Positions 11,517-18,494 of a stretch of 64,000 nucleotides of DNA are shown here, one piece after another. Numbering within the stretch: position 1 is the first letter of the stretch; every line of letters begins with the position of its first letter. The position numbers and the translations under genes were made by a program. The notes under the pieces were generated by a model. It worked only from the letters and a program-made list of their open reading frames with translations. It had not been told where the DNA came from and searched no databases. The stretch covers positions 1 through 64,000 of the forward strand of contig QHSL01000059.1 in the NCBI GenBank assembly GCA_003220435.1. The letters are read 5' to 3'. This stretch comes from Candidatus Rokuibacteriota bacterium (GTDB taxonomy: Bacteria > Methylomirabilota > Methylomirabilia > Rokubacteriales > CSP1-6).

Positions 11517-11581
11517 GGCCCCCAAGTAAACCGAAGGCCTGAGCCTCCTGCCGTAGTCTGCGGACTACAGGGCCCAGACTT

Positions 11582-11649
11582 GCGGACCGGAGCCGGCTTG
11601 CACCCCTCTCTGGCCACCCTCGGTACAAGCCGGCCTCACGGACCCCGCT
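11582..11649 (-). repeat. Dispersed repeat, degenerate copy
   Basis: This stretch, read on the minus strand, is related to the central part of the element inside the UGSC gene (60798-60864). A 38-base core (11612-11649 against 60798-60835, opposite orientation) differs at only two bases. One inverted end is partly recognisable and the other is missing. It occupies most of the 153-base gap between mlaC and the ArsR gene. Confidence 0.65.
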
Positions 11650-11669
11650 CCAGTGATAGATTTACAAAT

Positions 11670-11969
11670 GTGAAGACGCTTCCTCTCGCCCGGCTCCAGG
11701 CTCGCGACGATCACGTCGAGGCGTTCAAGGCGCTCGCCCACCTCACGCGCCTCGAGATCTTCTTCCTGCTGGTCCGCCGCGGGCGCGAGGTGCCGGCCGG
11801 CGAGATCCAGGCCGAGCTCGAGATCCCCGGGCCCACGCTCTCACACCACCTCGACCTGCTCCGGCGTGCCGGGCTGGTCCAGAGCCGCAAGGAGGAGCGG
11901 TTCGTGTACTACTCGGCGCGCTCCGACATGGCGTCGGAGCTCGTCCGTCTGCTGACGGCCTGCTGCTGA
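11670..11969 (+). CDS. ArsR/SmtB-family transcriptional regulator
   Basis: A 99-residue winged-helix repressor: FKALAHLTRLEIFFLLVRRG (helix 1-2), then the recognition region ELEIPGPTLSHHLDLLRRAGLV and the wing RKEERFVYYSAR. The classic metal-binding CVC in the recognition region is absent, but the C-terminus ends in two Cys residues that could sense thiols or metals. The GTG at 11670 is chosen because an ATG two bases earlier is out of frame. An A/T-rich TTTACAAATG lies just upstream. It is followed 11 bases on by the ubiquitin-like gene, probably one operon. Confidence 0.85.
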   Translation: MKTLPLARLQARDDHVEAFKALAHLTRLEIFFLLVRRGREVPAGEIQAELEIPGPTLSHHLDLLRRAGLVQSRKEERFVYYSARSDMASELVRLLTACC

Positions 11970-11980
11970 CGGGGTCCGAC

Positions 11981-12301
11981 ATGAGCCCCGCTCCCCCCAC
12001 GGTCGCGACGATTCCGGTGGAGGTCGCCTCCTGGGTCACGAAGTTCGTCGGCGGCGACGGGACCGGCCGACGCATTCTCGAGGAGCCGCTCACGCCGGGC
12101 GCGACGGTTCGCAGCATTCTCGCCGGCGCCTCGGCGAAGTTCCCGGACCTGCACGGGGCTCTGTGGCACGGCAACGAGCTCGGCGAGCACATCGAGGTGC
12201 TCGTGAACGATGCCGTGCTCGGCATCGACCACAGCCTCGACTCGCCGCTGCGTCCGGGGGACCGCATCACGCTGCTCGCCCAGTTCATGGGCGGCACCTG
12301 A
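11981..12301 (+). CDS. MoaD/ThiS-type ubiquitin-like protein
   Basis: A 106-residue beta-grasp protein. The last 40 residues (HIEVLVNDAVLG...LRPGDRITLLAQFMGG) match sulfur-carrier proteins of the MoaD/ThiS family. The C-terminus is Gly-Gly-Thr rather than the usual terminal Gly-Gly, so adenylation would need removal of the last residue, or the protein is a non-carrier relative. It has an N-terminal extension of about 35 residues. It sits between the ArsR gene and a virulence-factor-family gene (2-base gap), so the three are probably co-expressed. Confidence 0.75.
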   Translation: MSPAPPTVATIPVEVASWVTKFVGGDGTGRRILEEPLTPGATVRSILAGASAKFPDLHGALWHGNELGEHIEVLVNDAVLGIDHSLDSPLRPGDRITLLAQFMGGT

Positions 12302-12303
12302 GC

Positions 12304-12588
12304 GTGGCCACCTACCAGGTCATCGCCTGGAAGGACGTCCCGGCGATGGTCGAGGCGCGCGACGAGACGGAGACCGTGACGCGCCAGCTGAGCGATCGAT
12401 TCCAGCAGCTCATCGACTCGGTCGCGATGCAGCTCGGCATCCAGGACCAGGACGCGTACCTCGAGCTGTGGGACCGCGGCCAGCGGCAGGAGCGGTCCGG
12501 AAGCGCCGCGGAAGTCGCCGACTCGGTCGTCGCCGAGCTCGAGGCCCGCTTCCCGGAGTTCATCGGGCGCGCGTTCCGCCGTCCGTGA
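12304..12588 (+). CDS. Virulence factor-family small protein
   Basis: A 94-residue cytosolic protein beginning VATYQVIAWKDVPAMVEARD, the hallmark of a small conserved family named 'virulence factor' in domain databases, whose biochemical function is not known. The rest is helical and acidic, with SVAMQLGIQDQDAYLELWDRG. The GTG start is two bases after the upstream stop. No signal peptide is present. Its position beside a ubiquitin-like protein and an ArsR regulator hints at stress or sulfur metabolism, but that is inference. Confidence 0.7.
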   Translation: MATYQVIAWKDVPAMVEARDETETVTRQLSDRFQQLIDSVAMQLGIQDQDAYLELWDRGQRQERSGSAAEVADSVVAELEARFPEFIGRAFRRP

Positions 12589-12708: not shown

Positions 12709-12825
12709 ATGCCGAAGCTCGCTGCGCGCGCGGTCGTGATCGCGGTGGCGGGAGTGTCCTTCAGGCTCGCCGGGATCGCCGGCGAAGCGCTCGCCCAGGG
12801 AAGGGCGATGGAGAGGAGGCCCTAG
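12709..12825 (+). CDS. Small exported-peptide ORF (38 aa)
   Basis: A 38-codon frame with a strong Shine-Dalgarno (GAGGAGG, 5-6 bases before the ATG). The peptide has two basic residues, a hydrophobic core (VVIAVAGVSF) and a possible signal-peptidase site ALAQ, leaving only about nine residues after cleavage. The Shine-Dalgarno of the next gene (GAGAGGAGG) lies inside its last codons and the spacing is two bases, so the two genes are probably translationally coupled. It may be a leader peptide or a small envelope peptide; nothing similar is recognised. Confidence 0.5.
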   Translation: MPKLAARAVVIAVAGVSFRLAGIAGEALAQGRAMERRP

Positions 12826-12827
12826 CC

Positions 12828-13355
12828 ATGCGCGGTCGCGCGCGACTCGTGGTCGTGGCGCTGCTGATGGCGACCGGCCTCGCGGCCGGTGCCGCCGGTG
12901 CCCAGAGCCTGCGAATCGGCGCTCCGGCGCCGGAGGTGACGGGCGAGCGCTGGATCAACAGCGGACCGCTCTCCACGCCGGGGCTACGCGGCCGCGTCGT
13001 GCTGGTCGAGTTCTGGACCTACGGCTGAATCAACTGCCAGAACGTGATCCCGCAGTTGCGGGGTTGGTACGATCGCTACGAGAACGACGGGTTCACCATC
13101 GTCGGCGTGCACAGCCCGGAGTTCTTCTGGGAGAAGTCTTACGATAGGGTCGTGGAGGCCGCGAAGCGGCTCGGCGTGCGCTACCCGGTCGTCCAGGACA
13201 ACGACATGACAATCTGGAAGCGCTGGGGCATCCGGGCGTGGCCGACGACGCTCCTGGTGGACAAGAAGGGGGTCGTCCGCTACCGGCACATCGGCGAGGG
13301 CGACTACGAGGAGACCGAAGCGATGATCCGGCGGCTGCTCGCCGAGCGGGAATAG
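12828..13355 (+). CDS. Selenocysteine-containing exported thioredoxin (DipZ/TlpA-like), UGA at 13026
   Basis: One gene of 176 codons with an in-frame TGA at 13026-13028 read as Sec67. Residues 1-26 form a signal peptide (cleavage near AGA-QS), so the enzyme acts outside the cytoplasm. Residues 30-175 are a thioredoxin fold like the C-terminal domain of DipZ: VVLVEFWTYG-U-INCQN gives a U-x-x-C redox motif where relatives have C-x-x-C. Downstream it keeps IVGVHSPEFFWEKS, YPVVQDNDMTIW, the cis-Pro loop RAWPTTLLVD and the GEGDYEETE end. The frame is continuous on both sides and a hairpin of bacterial SECIS type follows. The start has a Shine-Dalgarno within the preceding small ORF. A plain stop or sequencing error is possible but fits less well. 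Confidence 0.85.
13047..13064 (+). promoter_or_regulatory. Putative bacterial SECIS hairpin (selenothioredoxin)
   Basis: Bases 13047-13053 pair with 13058-13064 (five G-C pairs, one U-G, one A-U; two more wobble pairs possible outwards). The four-base loop is AGUU, with a G in the second position. The loop begins 25 bases after the UGA. Bacterial SECIS elements recognised by SelB are short stems with a G near the start of a small loop, about 16-37 bases after UGA, so the geometry fits. A competing 7-bp stem (13031-13037 with 13052-13058) starts too close to the UGA. Confidence 0.7.
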
Positions 13356-13390
13356 CGATCGGCGCCAGCTCTCCCTCCGCACGGCTCTCG

Positions 13391-14887
13391 GTGCTGGCGC
13401 TCGTCGCCATCGTGATGCCCGTCACGATCATCGTGGTGCTCGGCTACGTATCGTTGCGTCAGTGGGAGGCGTCGTCAGACCTGCTCTTCCGCGAGCAGGC
13501 GCGCGATATGGCCTCGATGGCGGCCGAGAAAGTCGAGATGATGCTGCGGCACACCGAGGACGCCTTCCTCGACCGGCTCCAGCAGATTTTGTCGGCCCAG
13601 GAGCGCCCGGAGCGCGCGCTGGACGCGCTGTTGTCGGAGTCGCCGCTGGTCGGCCGCCTCTACCTCTTCGATCGACGCGGCGAGCGCGTCTATCCGCGCG
13701 CGTGGCGGGATGGCGACGCGGGGACGTTCGGGCCGCTGGCCGCCGAGGCCGGCAAGGGCGGAGCCGACCGGGGCGGGAAGTACCAGATCGTCGCCGGCGG
13801 CCAGATCTGTCTGGCCAGGCTCGTCACGGCGCGCGGCGAGATACGGCTCGCCGCGTTCTCGCGCGACATCGAGACGCTGCGGCGCGACATCCTCGACCCT
13901 GCGCTGAGAGCCCTCGAGTCGCCGACGATCGTCGCGGTGCTCGACCCGGCCGGGCGGCCGGTGTACAGTCGCGCGCCTCTGGGGGACGCCGAGCACATGC
14001 TGGCGGTCGGCTTCCGAGACGCCCTGCCCGAGTGGCGCCTGGCCGTGTACCAGCCGCCCGGCGCGGCGCCCCGCCAGGCGGTCCGCCGCCAGGTCATGCT
14101 CTTCACGGTCGCCTTCGGCGTCCTGCTCGTGCTCATCGTGGCCGGGATCGTCGCGAGCTGGCGACTCACGCGCCGGCAGACCGAAATGGCGCGGCTCAAA
14201 TCGGACTTCGTCGCCAACGTCTCTCACGATCTGAAGACTCCGCTCTCCGTGATCCGGATGTTCGGGGAGACGCTCGAGATGGGGCGCGTGACCGACGAGA
14301 GGCAGCGCCGCCAGTACTACGGCGTGATCACGCGCGAGAGCGAGCGGCTCTCGCGGCTGATCGACAACGTGCTCGACTTCTCGCGGATCGAGGGTGGTCG
14401 TCGCACGTACGAGATGGCGCCGACCGCGATCGAGCCGCTGGTCCGCGACACGCTCGACGCGTTCGCGCACCCCCTCGCGCAGCAGGGGTTCAAGGTCGAC
14501 GTGTCCGTCGCGCCGAACCTGGGGGAACTCCCGCTGGACGCCGGGGCGATCGGTCAGGCGCTGGCGAACCTCGTCGACAACGCGATCAAGTACTCGGGGT
14601 CGGAGCGCGTGCTCTCCGTCGACGCGCGGGCCGTCGGCGGACGCCTGGCCCTGACCGTGTCCGACCGCGGCCTCGGAATTCCGAAGGCGGAGCACGCGAA
14701 GATCTTCGAGAAGTTCTATCGCGTGGGCCGGAGCGACACGCAGGGGCGCCGGGGCAGCGGAGTGGGGTTGGCACTGGTCCGGCACGTCGCCGAGGCCCAC
14801 GGCGGCGACGTCACCCTGGAGAGCGCGCCGGGCGAGGGCAGCCGCTTCACGCTCTGGCTGCCGCTCGGGCGGAAACCCGATGCCTAG
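13391..14887 (+). CDS. Sensor histidine kinase
   Basis: A membrane kinase of at least 498 residues. The first transmembrane helix is VLALVAIVMPVTIIVVLGYV, followed by a periplasmic sensing region (residues 25-225), a second helix near residues 235-258, the phosphoacceptor box NVSHDLKTPLS (His279), and an ATPase domain with NLVDNAIKYSG, DRGLGIP and GSGVGLAL. The start is uncertain: codons upstream (SPSARLS) look protein-like but offer no standard start before 13391. It overlaps the response-regulator gene by eight bases. With the following genes it resembles the HprS sensor next to msrPQ in E. coli. Confidence 0.88.
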   Translation: MLALVAIVMPVTIIVVLGYVSLRQWEASSDLLFREQARDMASMAAEKVEMMLRHTEDAFLDRLQQILSAQERPERALDALLSESPLVGRLYLFDRRGERVYPRAWRDGDAGTFGPLAAEAGKGGADRGGKYQIVAGGQICLARLVTARGEIRLAAFSRDIETLRRDILDPALRALESPTIVAVLDPAGRPVYSRAPLGDAEHMLAVGFRDALPEWRLAVYQPPGAAPRQAVRRQVMLFTVAFGVLLVLIVAGIVASWRLTRRQTEMARLKSDFVANVSHDLKTPLSVIRMFGETLEMGRVTDERQRRQYYGVITRESERLSRLIDNVLDFSRIEGGRRTYEMAPTAIEPLVRDTLDAFAHPLAQQGFKVDVSVAPNLGELPLDAGAIGQALANLVDNAIKYSGSERVLSVDARAVGGRLALTVSDRGLGIPKAEHAKIFEKFYRVGRSDTQGRRGSGVGLALVRHVAEAHGGDVTLESAPGEGSRFTLWLPLGRKPDA

Positions 14888-15560
14888 GATTCTGATCGTC
14901 GACGACGAGCCCGAGATCGTCCGCGGCCTGGCGGACAACCTGCGCTTCGAGGGCTACCAGACGACGGCGGCGACCAACGGTGAGGACGCCGTCGCCCGCG
15001 CCCTCTCCGACGGGCCCGATCTCATCCTGCTCGACGTGATGATGCCGGTCATGAGCGGGTGGGACGTGTGCCGGACGCTGCGGGCCAAGGGCATCGACGT
15101 GCCGATCGTGATGCTCACGGCGCGCGGCGAAGAGGTCGACCGGGTGCGTGGCCTCGAGCTCGGCGCCGACGACTACGTGACGAAGCCGTTCTCGCTCCGG
15201 GAGCTGCTGGCGCGGGTGCGAGCGATCTTGAGACGTCCGGGCCCCCGGCGGAAGTTCGAGGAGTTCTCATTCGGCGACGTCCGGATCCGGCTCCGCGGCC
15301 GGCAGGTGTTCAAGGCGGGCGTCGAAGTTCGCCTCACGCGTAAGGAATTCGACCTGCTCGTCTTCCTGGTCGAGCACCGGGGCGAGGTGATCACGCGGGA
15401 GCGGCTGCTGGACGAGGTCTGGGGGTTCGAGCGATTTCCCACGACGCGAACGGTCGACACCCACATCCTGCGGCTCCGGCACAAGTTCGAAGCGGACCTC
15501 GATCACCCCGTGCACATCCTCACCGTCCACGGTCAGGGTTACAAGTTCACGGGGGTGTGA
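14880..15560 (+). CDS. OmpR/PhoB-family response regulator
   Basis: A 226-residue regulator with an N-terminal receiver (DDEPEIV acidic pair, phosphoacceptor Asp in LILLDVMMP, switch Thr in MLTARG, Lys in DYVTKPFS) and a C-terminal winged helix ([20 protein letters not shown], then [16 protein letters not shown]). It is the partner of the kinase whose gene it overlaps. The likely targets are its own operon and the msrPQ genes 37 bases downstream, by analogy with HprR; no binding-site repeats were identified. Confidence 0.93.
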
Positions 15561-15597: not shown

Positions 15598-16548
15598 ATG
15601 CTGATCCGACGAGCCCCGCGATTCACCGCGAGGGAGATCACCGATCCGGAGCTCTACCTGAGCCGGCGCGAGCTGATGGCGGGCGCCGCCGCGCTCGCGC
15701 TGATGCCCGGCGCTGGCGAGGCCGCCGCGCCCAAAAGCGAGCCGCTCGCCGCGAAGCACAATCCCGCCTTCAGCCTGAGCGAGCCGGCCACCAAGATCGA
15801 TCACGCGACGACCTACAACAACTTCTACGAGTTCGGCGTCAACAAGGACGATCCCTCGCGCCTGGCGCACACGCTGAAGCCTCGCCCGTGGTCGGTGCAG
15901 GTCGACGGCCACGTGCACAAGCCGAAGACCTTCGACGTCGACGAGTTGATCAAGCTGTTCCCGCTCGAGGAGCGCGTGTACTCGCTCCGGTGTGTCGAAG
16001 CGTGGTCGATGGTGATCCCGTGGATCGGCTTCCCCCTGGCGTCGCTGCTCAAGCGCGTCGAGCCGACCCGTCAGGCGAAGTTCGTCGAGTTCACGGCGCT
16101 CCTCGACCCCAATCAGTTCCCGGCCCAGAAGCCCGGGTTCTTCGGCTTCTCGTCGCTCGACTGGCCGTACGTCGAGGGGCTTCGCCTGGACGAGGCTCTG
16201 CATCCGCTGACGCTGCTCGCGGTGGGCATGTACGGCCAGGTGCTGCCGAACCAGAACGGCGCGCCGGTGCGCGTCGTGATTCCATGGAAGTACGGGTTCA
16301 AGAGCGCCAAGTCCATCGTGCGCATCCGGCTGGTCGCCGAGCAGCCGAAGACCGCCTGGGAGAAGGCCGCGCCCCAGGAGTACGGCTTCTACTCCAACGT
16401 CAACCCGGCGGTCAGCCACCCGCGCTGGAGCCAGGCCGACGAACGGCGCATCGGCGAGTTCCGCCGCCGCCCGACCCTGCCGTTCAATGGCTACGCCGAC
16501 CAGGTCGCATCGCTCTACTCCGGGATGGACCTGAAGAAGTTCTACTAG
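15598..16548 (+). CDS. msrP: Protein-methionine-sulfoxide reductase catalytic subunit MsrP
   Basis: A 316-residue periplasmic molybdoenzyme (YedY family) that reduces oxidised methionine in envelope proteins. A twin-arginine signal ([14 protein letters not shown], residues 21-34) exports the folded protein. The molybdopterin-ligating Cys lies in [15 protein letters not shown], and the remainder ([28 protein letters not shown]) is standard for the family. The ATG has a Shine-Dalgarno GAAGGAG. The membrane partner gene msrQ starts seven bases after the stop. Confidence 0.95.
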
Positions 16549-16555
16549 GCCGTCG

Positions 16556-17221
16556 GTGACGCGCCGGACACGGATCACGCTCAAGGTGGTGGTGTGGGCG
16601 GGGTGTCTGGCTCCGCTGCTGCTCCTCGGCTACCGCGCGTGGACCGACGACCTCGGCGCCAACCCGATCAGCTTCGTCACCAACACGCTCGGCGACTGGA
16701 CGCTGCGGATCTTGCTGGCATCGCTCGCGATGACGCCGCTCCGCATCGTGTTCGGGCTCTCGTGGCCGATCACGCTCCGGCGGCTGCTCGGACTCTTCGC
16801 CTTCGCGTACGTGTGCCTGCACTTCTCGGTGTGGATCGTGCTGGACTTCTTCTTCGACTGGCCGCGGATGTGGGCTGACATCGTCAAGCGCCCCTACATC
16901 ACCCTGGGGATGCTGGCGCTCCTCTCGCTGACCCCGCTCGCGGCGACCTCCACCACCGGGATGATCCGGCGCCTCGGCGCGCGGACGTGGACGCGCCTGC
17001 ACCGTCTCGTGTACATCGCCGGCGCCTGCGCCGTGCTCCACTATCTCTGGCTGGCGAAGGTCGGCGTGACGGATCCCTACTGGTACGCGGGTGCGCTCCT
17101 CGTGCTGCTCGGAATTCGGGCGGGGGACTGGAGCCGGCGCGCAATCCGCCGTCGCACCGCCGCCGTCGCGGCGAGCGCGACCTCCGCTCGGCTCATAGAC
17201 CGAAAACGCTTTTCCCCGTGA
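16556..17221 (+). CDS. msrQ: Haem-binding membrane subunit MsrQ
   Basis: A 221-residue inner-membrane b-type cytochrome (YedZ family) that passes electrons from the quinone pool or a flavin reductase to MsrP. About six hydrophobic segments are seen, with haem-ligand histidines in CLHFSVWI, RLHRLVYIA and AVLHYLWLAK. The GTG at 16556 is seven bases after the msrP stop, so translation is coupled. Family length is normal. It is the last gene of the kinase/regulator/MsrPQ run; the next gene has its own -10 box. Confidence 0.94.
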   Translation: MTRRTRITLKVVVWAGCLAPLLLLGYRAWTDDLGANPISFVTNTLGDWTLRILLASLAMTPLRIVFGLSWPITLRRLLGLFAFAYVCLHFSVWIVLDFFFDWPRMWADIVKRPYITLGMLALLSLTPLAATSTTGMIRRLGARTWTRLHRLVYIAGACAVLHYLWLAKVGVTDPYWYAGALLVLLGIRAGDWSRRAIRRRTAAVAASATSARLIDRKRFSP

Positions 17222-17240: not shown

Positions 17241-18494
17241 ATGAGTCGCATGGGATCCGCCGCCGCGGTCTCCGTCAACGGTCGCGTCTACCGCGCGCCC
17301 GACCGTCCCGTCGTCGTCGTCTGCATCGACGGGTGCGAGCCGGAGTACTTCGAGCGTGGCATCGCCGCGGGCGCGACGCCCGCCGTGGCGCGCTTCCGGC
17401 GGGAGGGCGTCTACCGGCTCGCGCGGTCCGTCGTGCCGAGCTTCACGAACCCCAACAACCTCTCCATCGTCACCGGCGTGCCGCCGGCGATTCACGGGAT
17501 CTCGGGCAACTACTTCTACGACCACGCCACCGGCCAAGAAGTGATGATGAACGATCCGAAGTTCCTGCGCTGCCAGACCCTGCTGGCGGCGCTGTCGCGG
17601 GCCGGTGCGCGGCCGGCGGTGGTCACCGCGAAGGACAAGCTCCGCCGCCTGCTCGGCCATGAGATGGAGGGCATCTGCTTCTCCTCCGAGAAGGCGGACC
17701 AGACGACCAAGGCCGAGCACGGCATTGCGCGCGCCACCGACCTCGTGCCGATGGCGGTGCCGTCCGTCTACAGCGCGGAGCTCTCCGAGTACGTGCTGGC
17801 CGCGGGGCTCGAGCTGCTCCGTCGCGAACGGCCCGACGCGCTCTACCTGTCGCTGACCGACTACGTGCAGCACAAGCACGCGCCCGGTACCCCGGCCGCG
17901 ATCGACTTCTACGCGATGCTCGATCGCTACTTCGACGCGTTCGACCGCGCCGGCGCCGTGCTTGGCATCACGGCCGACCACGGCATGAACGCCAAATCCA
18001 ATCCGGACGGCACGCCGAAGGTCGTCTACCTGCGTCCCATCGTCGACGGGCTCGTGGGGCCCGGACGCGCCCGCGTGATTCTGCCGATCACCGATCCCTA
18101 CGTCGTCCACCACGGCGCGCTCGGCTCGTTCGCCACGGTGTATCTCGACGACCCGGCGCGGGGGTCCGCCGTCGCGGCGCGACTCGCCTCGACCCCGGGC
18201 GTCGCGGAGGTCTACGACAACGCGACCGGCTGCGCGCGGTTCGAGCTGCCGCGCGATCGGGTCGGCGACCTGATCGTCATCGGCGACGTCCACACCGTCC
18301 TCGGCAAGTCGCCCGAGGAGCACGATCTGTCGCTGCTCGAGGAGCCGCTCCGATCGCACGGCGGCGTCTCGGAGGAGACGGTGCCGTTCGTCATCAACCG
18401 CCCGCTCGATGACGCCCACGCGCGGCGGCTCGCCCGCGCCGACGACCTGAGAAACTTCGACATCTTCGACTATGCGCTGAACGGTGTCCCCTAG
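17241..18494 (+). CDS. phnA: Phosphonoacetate hydrolase
   Basis: A 417-residue alkaline-phosphatase-superfamily enzyme that splits the C-P bond of phosphonoacetate to acetate and phosphate. The binuclear zinc ligands and nucleophile are all recognisable: Asp in VVCIDGCE, Thr in FTNPNNLSIVTG, Asp and His in LTDYVQHKHAPGT, Asp-His in ITADHGMN and His in RSHGGVSEE. The segment GQEVMMNDPKFLRCQT is typical of this subfamily. It stands without phosphonate transport or aminotransferase genes. Two in-frame ATGs (17241, 17250) are possible starts. Confidence 0.9.
   Translation: MSRMGSAAAVSVNGRVYRAPDRPVVVVCIDGCEPEYFERGIAAGATPAVARFRREGVYRLARSVVPSFTNPNNLSIVTGVPPAIHGISGNYFYDHATGQEVMMNDPKFLRCQTLLAALSRAGARPAVVTAKDKLRRLLGHEMEGICFSSEKADQTTKAEHGIARATDLVPMAVPSVYSAELSEYVLAAGLELLRRERPDALYLSLTDYVQHKHAPGTPAAIDFYAMLDRYFDAFDRAGAVLGITADHGMNAKSNPDGTPKVVYLRPIVDGLVGPGRARVILPITDPYVVHHGALGSFATVYLDDPARGSAVAARLASTPGVAEVYDNATGCARFELPRDRVGDLIVIGDVHTVLGKSPEEHDLSLLEEPLRSHGGVSEETVPFVINRPLDDAHARRLARADDLRNFDIFDYALNGVP

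Follow-up and report, generated by a model that had tools for sequence, protein, structure and literature searches.

The stretch of DNA analysed here (the window, 64,000 nucleotides long) comes from the 5.4-Mb, 147-contig assembly of a Candidatus Rokuibacteriota bacterium of the phylum Methylomirabilota, and very likely carries a genuine selenoprotein gene, selTrx, whose product is predicted to be the selenol thioredoxin of an envelope oxidant-defence operon with the methionine sulfoxide reductase system MsrPQ. The original prediction had described an exported thioredoxin encoded in one frame with a lone TGA, and its coordinates, frame and residue number proved correct: the sole internal TGA of the frame is codon 67, in the context WTYG-U-INC, and the frame ends with TAG. 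As had also been anticipated for ordinary gene callers, under the standard code the gene breaks up into a stub that stops at 13028 and an open reading frame lacking the N-terminal part (13044–13355, start codon GTG at 13044), and such gene calling readily overlooks the protein throughout the phylum.

12828–13355, + strand: selTrx, predicted exported DipZ-type thioredoxin, 175 aa, active site U67-I-N-C70 (in-frame TGA, Pfam, profile, AlphaFold2 and Foldseek)
12828–12902, + strand: signal peptide MRGRARLVVVALLMATGLAAGAAGA, presumed cleavage AGA-Q (hydrophobic stretch, by eye; low-pLDDT N-terminus in the model)
13026–13028, + strand: predicted selenocysteine (Sec) UGA codon at the attacking-Cys position (TGA in 53 of 55 genomes, TGC in two; invariant column 67)
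13046–13065, + strand: putative bacterial SECIS hairpin, 8-bp stem GAUCCCGC/GCGGGGUU, loop AGUU at 13054–13057 (fold, synonymous fixation, pairing and covariation)

Domain architecture and fold of selTrx

The protein matches the Pfam domains PF00578 (AhpC-TSA), PF13905 (Thioredoxin_8) and PF08534 (Redoxin). The best match of its family profile is Mycobacterium tuberculosis DipZ (2hyx, E = 2.4e-50), followed by SOQ1 and NHLRC2 and then by ResA-type proteins. AlphaFold2 models a confident thioredoxin fold (mean pLDDT 89.9), for which Foldseek returns the C-terminal domain of M. tuberculosis DipZ (5cyy/2hyx) first, as the nearest solved relative. The DipZ-type signature is present as well: C/U-x-x-C after the first strand in the context WTY-x-C/U-INC, a cis-proline, and an invariant W138-P139 pair. 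These results bear out the DipZ-like fold of the original prediction, and the signal peptide that it placed ahead of the TGA is clear by eye. SelTrx is a single domain to which the CcdA-like membrane domain of full-length DipZ is not fused. Among NCBIfam models, the best is ResA (E = 1.2e-17, below the cut-off), and NF041054, the model for WAxxUGC ResA-like selenoproteins, scores 24.1 bits against a cut-off of 300.

Conservation of the in-frame TGA

We compared 95 genomes of the phylum, 55 of which encode selTrx with the site covered. Codon 67 is TGA in all of these except two sister genomes, G046 and G047, which have TGC, so that the close homologues carry TGA or Cys at this column. Among distinct close orthologs, TGA occupies the exact codon in 42/42, and the protein is conserved on both sides of it. 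In the selTrx tree the two Cys forms group together (support 100/100) and are nested among the Sec forms; therefore Sec is, most simply, the predicted ancestral state of selTrx in these genomes, with a single swap to Cys. The Sec-to-Cys switch in genus g6 is accompanied by decay of the hairpin, and the operon there is intact.

Two side observations concern individual loci. In G008 and G013 (loci L089 and L092) the resolving Cys has been lost (UINS) and the Sec codon retained. Loci L004 and L005 are identical at selTrx but come from metagenome-assembled genomes (MAGs) labelled Chloroflexi and Methylomirabilota, respectively, which is probably a binning or naming error.

A putative SECIS hairpin downstream of the TGA

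The hairpin has the core CCCGC-AGTT-GCGGG, with its loop 25 nt after the UGA. Its minimum free energy (MFE), -15.5 kcal/mol, is not exceptional in comparison with shuffled sequences (z about -1.4), and the case for a SECIS element therefore rests on conservation. Among selTrx orthologs, synonymous choice is fixed at Pro+8 (CCG in 42/42), Leu+10 (TTG in 39/39) and Arg+11 (CGG in 42/42), counts that come from sequences related by descent and are not independent events, whereas flanking codons vary freely. TTG is a rare codon for Leu, accounting for 15% of Leu codons in the compared stretches (61/399), and 39 of these 61 are at Leu+10. All five core pairs of the stem are present in 47/47 sequences, related by descent likewise, and the fifth varies from C-G to U-A and U-G; sliding one arm of the stem as a control cuts pairing to 36–58%. 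Every compared sequence has AGUU, AGGU or GGUU as its loop, and genus g33 has, at nearly the same place, a stem of unrelated sequence with a GGU loop. Of the Cys forms, G047 has a broken stem and G046 a loop without the G.

According to the published bacterial SECIS model (PMC13188914), the loop has 3–9 nt with a G in its first two positions, the stem 4–16 bp, the spacing is 16–37 nt and the MFE is at most -7.5. The selTrx hairpin falls within every one of these ranges, with its AGUU loop, 8-bp stem, spacing of 25 and energy of -15.5 kcal/mol. An Rfam search of the window gave no match; an element of this small size and variability may have no model able to detect it.

Selenocysteine machinery and predicted decoding of the UGA

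The host encodes the components for Sec synthesis and insertion for which the original prediction had suggested a search: tRNA-Sec (69.8 bits, cut-off 47), selB (351 bits), selA (569 bits) and selD (341 bits) all score above curated cut-offs, and the first three are clustered on contig C138 (tRNA-Sec, selB, selA). SelB was not found, at the threshold used, in eight genomes with the TGA form, probably owing to MAG fragmentation. Together, TGA conservation, the hairpin and the Sec machinery support the selenothioredoxin that had been proposed, with Sec incorporation itself predicted from sequence.

Two other readings of the TGA were considered. Recoding of UGA as Trp or Cys, or generic readthrough, would dispense with selenium. 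Nothing specific points to it beyond the Cys at the homologous residue, but UGA terminates many ordinary genes, among them many selTrx orthologs (TGA at +109), the SECIS-like hairpin occurs together with tRNA-Sec and SelB, and the hairpin has decayed in the Cys forms; we consider such recoding highly improbable, and reassignment of the code was rejected on the conservation evidence. The second reading takes the gene for an ordinary Cys thioredoxin or a pseudogene whose TGA arose by an error in sequencing or assembly or by genuine nonsense mutation, as the 147-contig assembly and the TGC of two sister genomes might suggest. It is refuted by the identical codon in independent genomes (53 in all), with an intact conserved protein downstream, SECIS-like synonymous constraint and full Sec machinery, and is scarcely credible.

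In-frame TGA occurs in 11 of the 25 PF00578 domains of the host, which is therefore selenoprotein-rich, and several of these codons lie at the redox site (WATWUPTC, ESTUPYC, GYWUPFC, GRWUPYC, ASWUGC, TPGU); examples are found at C112:25698, C57:91880, C69:105050, C17:97895, C11:35161, C29:68912, C16:8944 and C75:15513. A single in-frame TGA in host selD (G000:C100:66727-67671) makes SelD itself a probable selenoprotein as well. In relatives, NHL-repeat-like (NHLRC2/SOQ1-related) thioredoxins, assigned as such from their CCINC signature and the tree, have TGA in place of the first Cys codon of the active site (CUINC) in L096, L097, L098, L099, L101, L103, L104 and L105. Several of these CUINC genes share a CCGC-AGTT-GCGG hairpin, which the Cys forms L100 and L102 lack.

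Genomic neighbourhood: MsrPQ and a two-component system

Beyond what the original prediction had covered, selTrx belongs to an operon with a two-component system, MsrP and MsrQ and, in relatives, a Met-rich peptide. Four genes follow it in the window:

13370–14887, + strand: sensor histidine kinase with HisKA and HATPase_c domains, true start uncertain but close to 13350 (domains; follows selTrx in most relatives)
14880–15560, + strand: OmpR/PhoB-type response regulator (domain; conserved order in relatives)
15598–16548, + strand: msrP, periplasmic protein-methionine-sulfoxide reductase (molybdenum), twin-arginine signal SRRELM (NF003767, E = 1.6e-142; linkage)
16556–17221, + strand: msrQ, heme-b membrane partner of MsrP (NF003831; linkage)

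Both MsrP (NF003767, 474 bits, cut-off 207) and MsrQ (NF003831, 169.8 bits, cut-off 130) score above curated cut-offs, and MsrPQ identity is further indicated by the Tat signal and the adjacency of the genes. No more than 5 kb separates msrP from selTrx in 33/55 genomes; the two genes then share a strand in every case and usually stand in the order selTrx, histidine kinase, response regulator, msrP, msrQ. The selTrx-msrP gap is 3–207 bp in 13 of these 33 genomes and in most others is filled by the kinase and regulator genes. The order from kinase to msrQ is conserved, and msrP and msrQ remain adjacent where the two-component system is missing. Both Cys-form genomes retain selTrx beside msrPQ. 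MsrP lies on a different contig in 14/55 genomes and was not found in eight of the 55. In class-level relatives no linkage of MsrP to selTrx was seen; the partnership is thus a lineage-level one. A search of the histidine kinase for a conserved sensing Cys found none, and MsrP has one conserved Cys, presumed to be the Mo ligand.

Other genes also travel with this cluster. Those for an ArsR regulator, a MoaD/ThiS-like protein and a small PF13769 protein (11580–12588 in the window) lie upstream of selTrx in many relatives too, and the phosphonoacetate hydrolase gene phnA (17241–18494; TIGR02335, 594 bits) lies downstream of msrQ within the genus and in some relatives. A candidate for a second selenoprotein of the cluster is encoded upstream of selTrx (L118:6107-6667, L119, L121, L122, L049, L051) by an AhpD/CMD-like gene whose frame contains a TGA (TPYU/AAYU-MD).

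Met-rich peptides and ccdA

A Met-rich secreted or lipoprotein peptide, often with MxKDx-like repeats, is encoded upstream of selTrx in ten genomes, directly adjoining it in eight (G042, G049, G050, G053, G067, G068, G073 and G074) and 1.3–1.7 kb away in G064 and G065. Of the peptides compared with TIGR02953 (pentapeptide MXKDX repeat), four matched, with scores below the cut-off. G008 encodes a Met-rich secreted peptide just downstream of selTrx, and genus g33 a Met-containing secreted protein upstream. A scan of the 64-kb window for Met-rich peptides found none; at the corresponding position lies a short gene:

12709–12825, + strand: 38-aa open reading frame, putative vestige of a Met-rich MXKDX-type secreted peptide, with only signal peptide and GRAMERRP and no repeats (position; likeness of signal peptide and tail to the reading frames of G049, G050 and G053)

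This reading frame has no family match, and its repeats were deleted or, possibly, collapsed in the assembly. The gene for the membrane protein CcdA lies directly upstream of selTrx only in the class-level relatives G008, G009 and G014; in the host one ccdA copy was found, on contig C100 beside a separate thioredoxin.

Proposed function

We propose a scheme in which Sec incorporation, envelope location, substrate and electron donor are all predicted. UGA 13026–13028 would be decoded as selenocysteine by SelB and tRNA-Sec under the direction of the hairpin at 13046–13065, and the exported product would fold as a single-domain DipZ/TlpA-type thioredoxin. In the envelope it would act as a fast selenol reductase beside the sensor pair, MsrP and MsrQ; many relatives would add a sacrificial peptide rich in Met. 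The U67 selenolate would attack a thiol oxidised to a disulfide or sulfenic acid, or would react directly with the oxidant (HOCl, chloramine or peroxide), C70 would resolve the intermediate as an Se-S bond, and a membrane carrier of the CcdA/DsbD type, probably CcdA, would re-reduce the protein. In parallel, MsrPQ would repair methionine sulfoxide with electrons from the respiratory chain, and selTrx would add a thiol/selenol branch to the defence provided by the Met-rich peptide and MsrPQ. SelTrx thus probably belongs to a chlorine/peroxide defence kit.

Within this scheme, selTrx might be mainly a direct reductase of HOCl, chloramine or peroxide and not a thiol-repair enzyme, given that its neighbours are reactive-oxidant response genes, that AhpD/CMD-like Sec proteins are encoded nearby in four relatives, and that G008 and G013 keep Sec with Ser in place of the resolving Cys. 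However, the fold is that of the disulfide reductases DipZ, ResA and TlpA, not that of peroxiredoxins, and most members keep UxxC, which leaves direct reduction an unlikely, if serious, candidate for the main activity.

Donation of electrons to MsrP or to an oxidised Met-rich peptide, instead of or alongside MsrQ, would fit the position of selTrx right next to msrP where the two-component genes are absent, and selTrx is recognisably related to the thioredoxin domain of PilB (MsrA/MsrB), which is known to recycle Met sulfoxide. Nevertheless, we regard this role as improbable because MsrP, with its one conserved Cys, has no disulfide to reduce and the Escherichia coli enzyme relies on MsrQ (PMC8076862); msrQ, moreover, accompanies msrP wherever the contig extends far enough. 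A disulfide relay from selTrx to MsrP was discarded as unlikely on the same count of cysteines.

Still less probable is a role in cytochrome c maturation as an apo-cytochrome reductase of the ResA/CcmG type. ResA is the best, albeit sub-threshold, NCBIfam model, and ccdA is adjacent in three class-level relatives, but no cytochrome maturation genes were seen beside selTrx in the window, the conserved linkage is to MsrPQ, and the host has a separate thioredoxin next to ccdA on C100.

A selenol thioredoxin working beside MsrPQ is thus the reading that we prefer. As a more specific proposal, which we advance tentatively and with the balance tipped slightly against it, the Sec DipZ-type thioredoxin would be a dedicated partner of MsrPQ and the Met-rich sacrificial peptide in a previously undescribed envelope module, ancestrally in its Sec form in Methylomirabilota, whose two branches (Sec/thiol and Mo/methionine) would neutralise reactive chlorine species or peroxide outside the cytoplasm.

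Relation to known systems

Selenoproteins with a thioredoxin fold and a UxxC site have been reviewed in Prx-like/TlpA-like (PF00578), 'Thiol-disulfide isomerase-like' (cd02966) and 'Redoxin family' (PF08534) groups (PMC13188914). SelTrx resembles them in fold, in Sec at the attacking position, in its predicted redox role and in its Pfam domains, but differs as an exported, MsrPQ-tied member of a DipZ/NHLRC2-like WTxGUINC subfamily; it may still be close to the 'Redoxin family' reference sequence, and the papers found name neither this subfamily nor its operon. Like NF041054 proteins, it combines a ResA-like thioredoxin fold with Sec, although their motif is UGC and that of selTrx is UxxC. Its best relatives in sequence and fold are the thioredoxin domains of DipZ (C-terminal; 2hyx, 5cyy), SOQ1 and NHLRC2, which have a C-I-N-C site, and the likeness to DipZ extends to CcdA as a separate neighbour gene in G008, G009 and G014. 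In contrast to these proteins, selTrx has Sec for Cys and is free-standing, with neither a CcdA fusion nor an extra C-terminal domain nor NHL repeats.

A Met-rich peptide together with MsrPQ is a known HOCl-scavenging arrangement, represented by MrpX-YedYZ of Azospira suillum and BcrXQP of Brucella (PMC8315932). The selTrx operon likewise has MsrP and MsrQ; in relatives they are accompanied by a gene for a secreted Met-rich, MXKDX-like peptide, with scores below the TIGR02953 cut-off, and the peptide in the window appears vestigial. A two-component system takes the place of the ECF sigma/anti-sigma pair, and a selenothioredoxin is added.

One Methylomirabilota MAG is reported to have 63 predicted selenoproteins (Deng et al. 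2026, as cited in PMC13188914). In the part of the literature covered by our search (Rokubacteria/Methylomirabilota selenoproteins, and links of MsrP to selenocysteine and of MXKDX to thioredoxin; most subscription journals outside its scope), neither selTrx nor its operon was described. Thus, UxxC thioredoxin-fold selenoproteins and selenoprotein-rich Methylomirabilota are known, but in the literature searched there appears to be no description of a DipZ-type Sec protein linked to MsrPQ.

Within the predicted scheme, selenium is retained across a whole lineage of uncultured soil bacteria in a thioredoxin that is exported and tied to a molybdenum methionine-repair system, and two trace-metal redox chemistries would be linked within one envelope-stress operon. 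The Sec-to-Cys switch of genus g6 and the UINS variant provide natural comparisons for the contribution of selenium.
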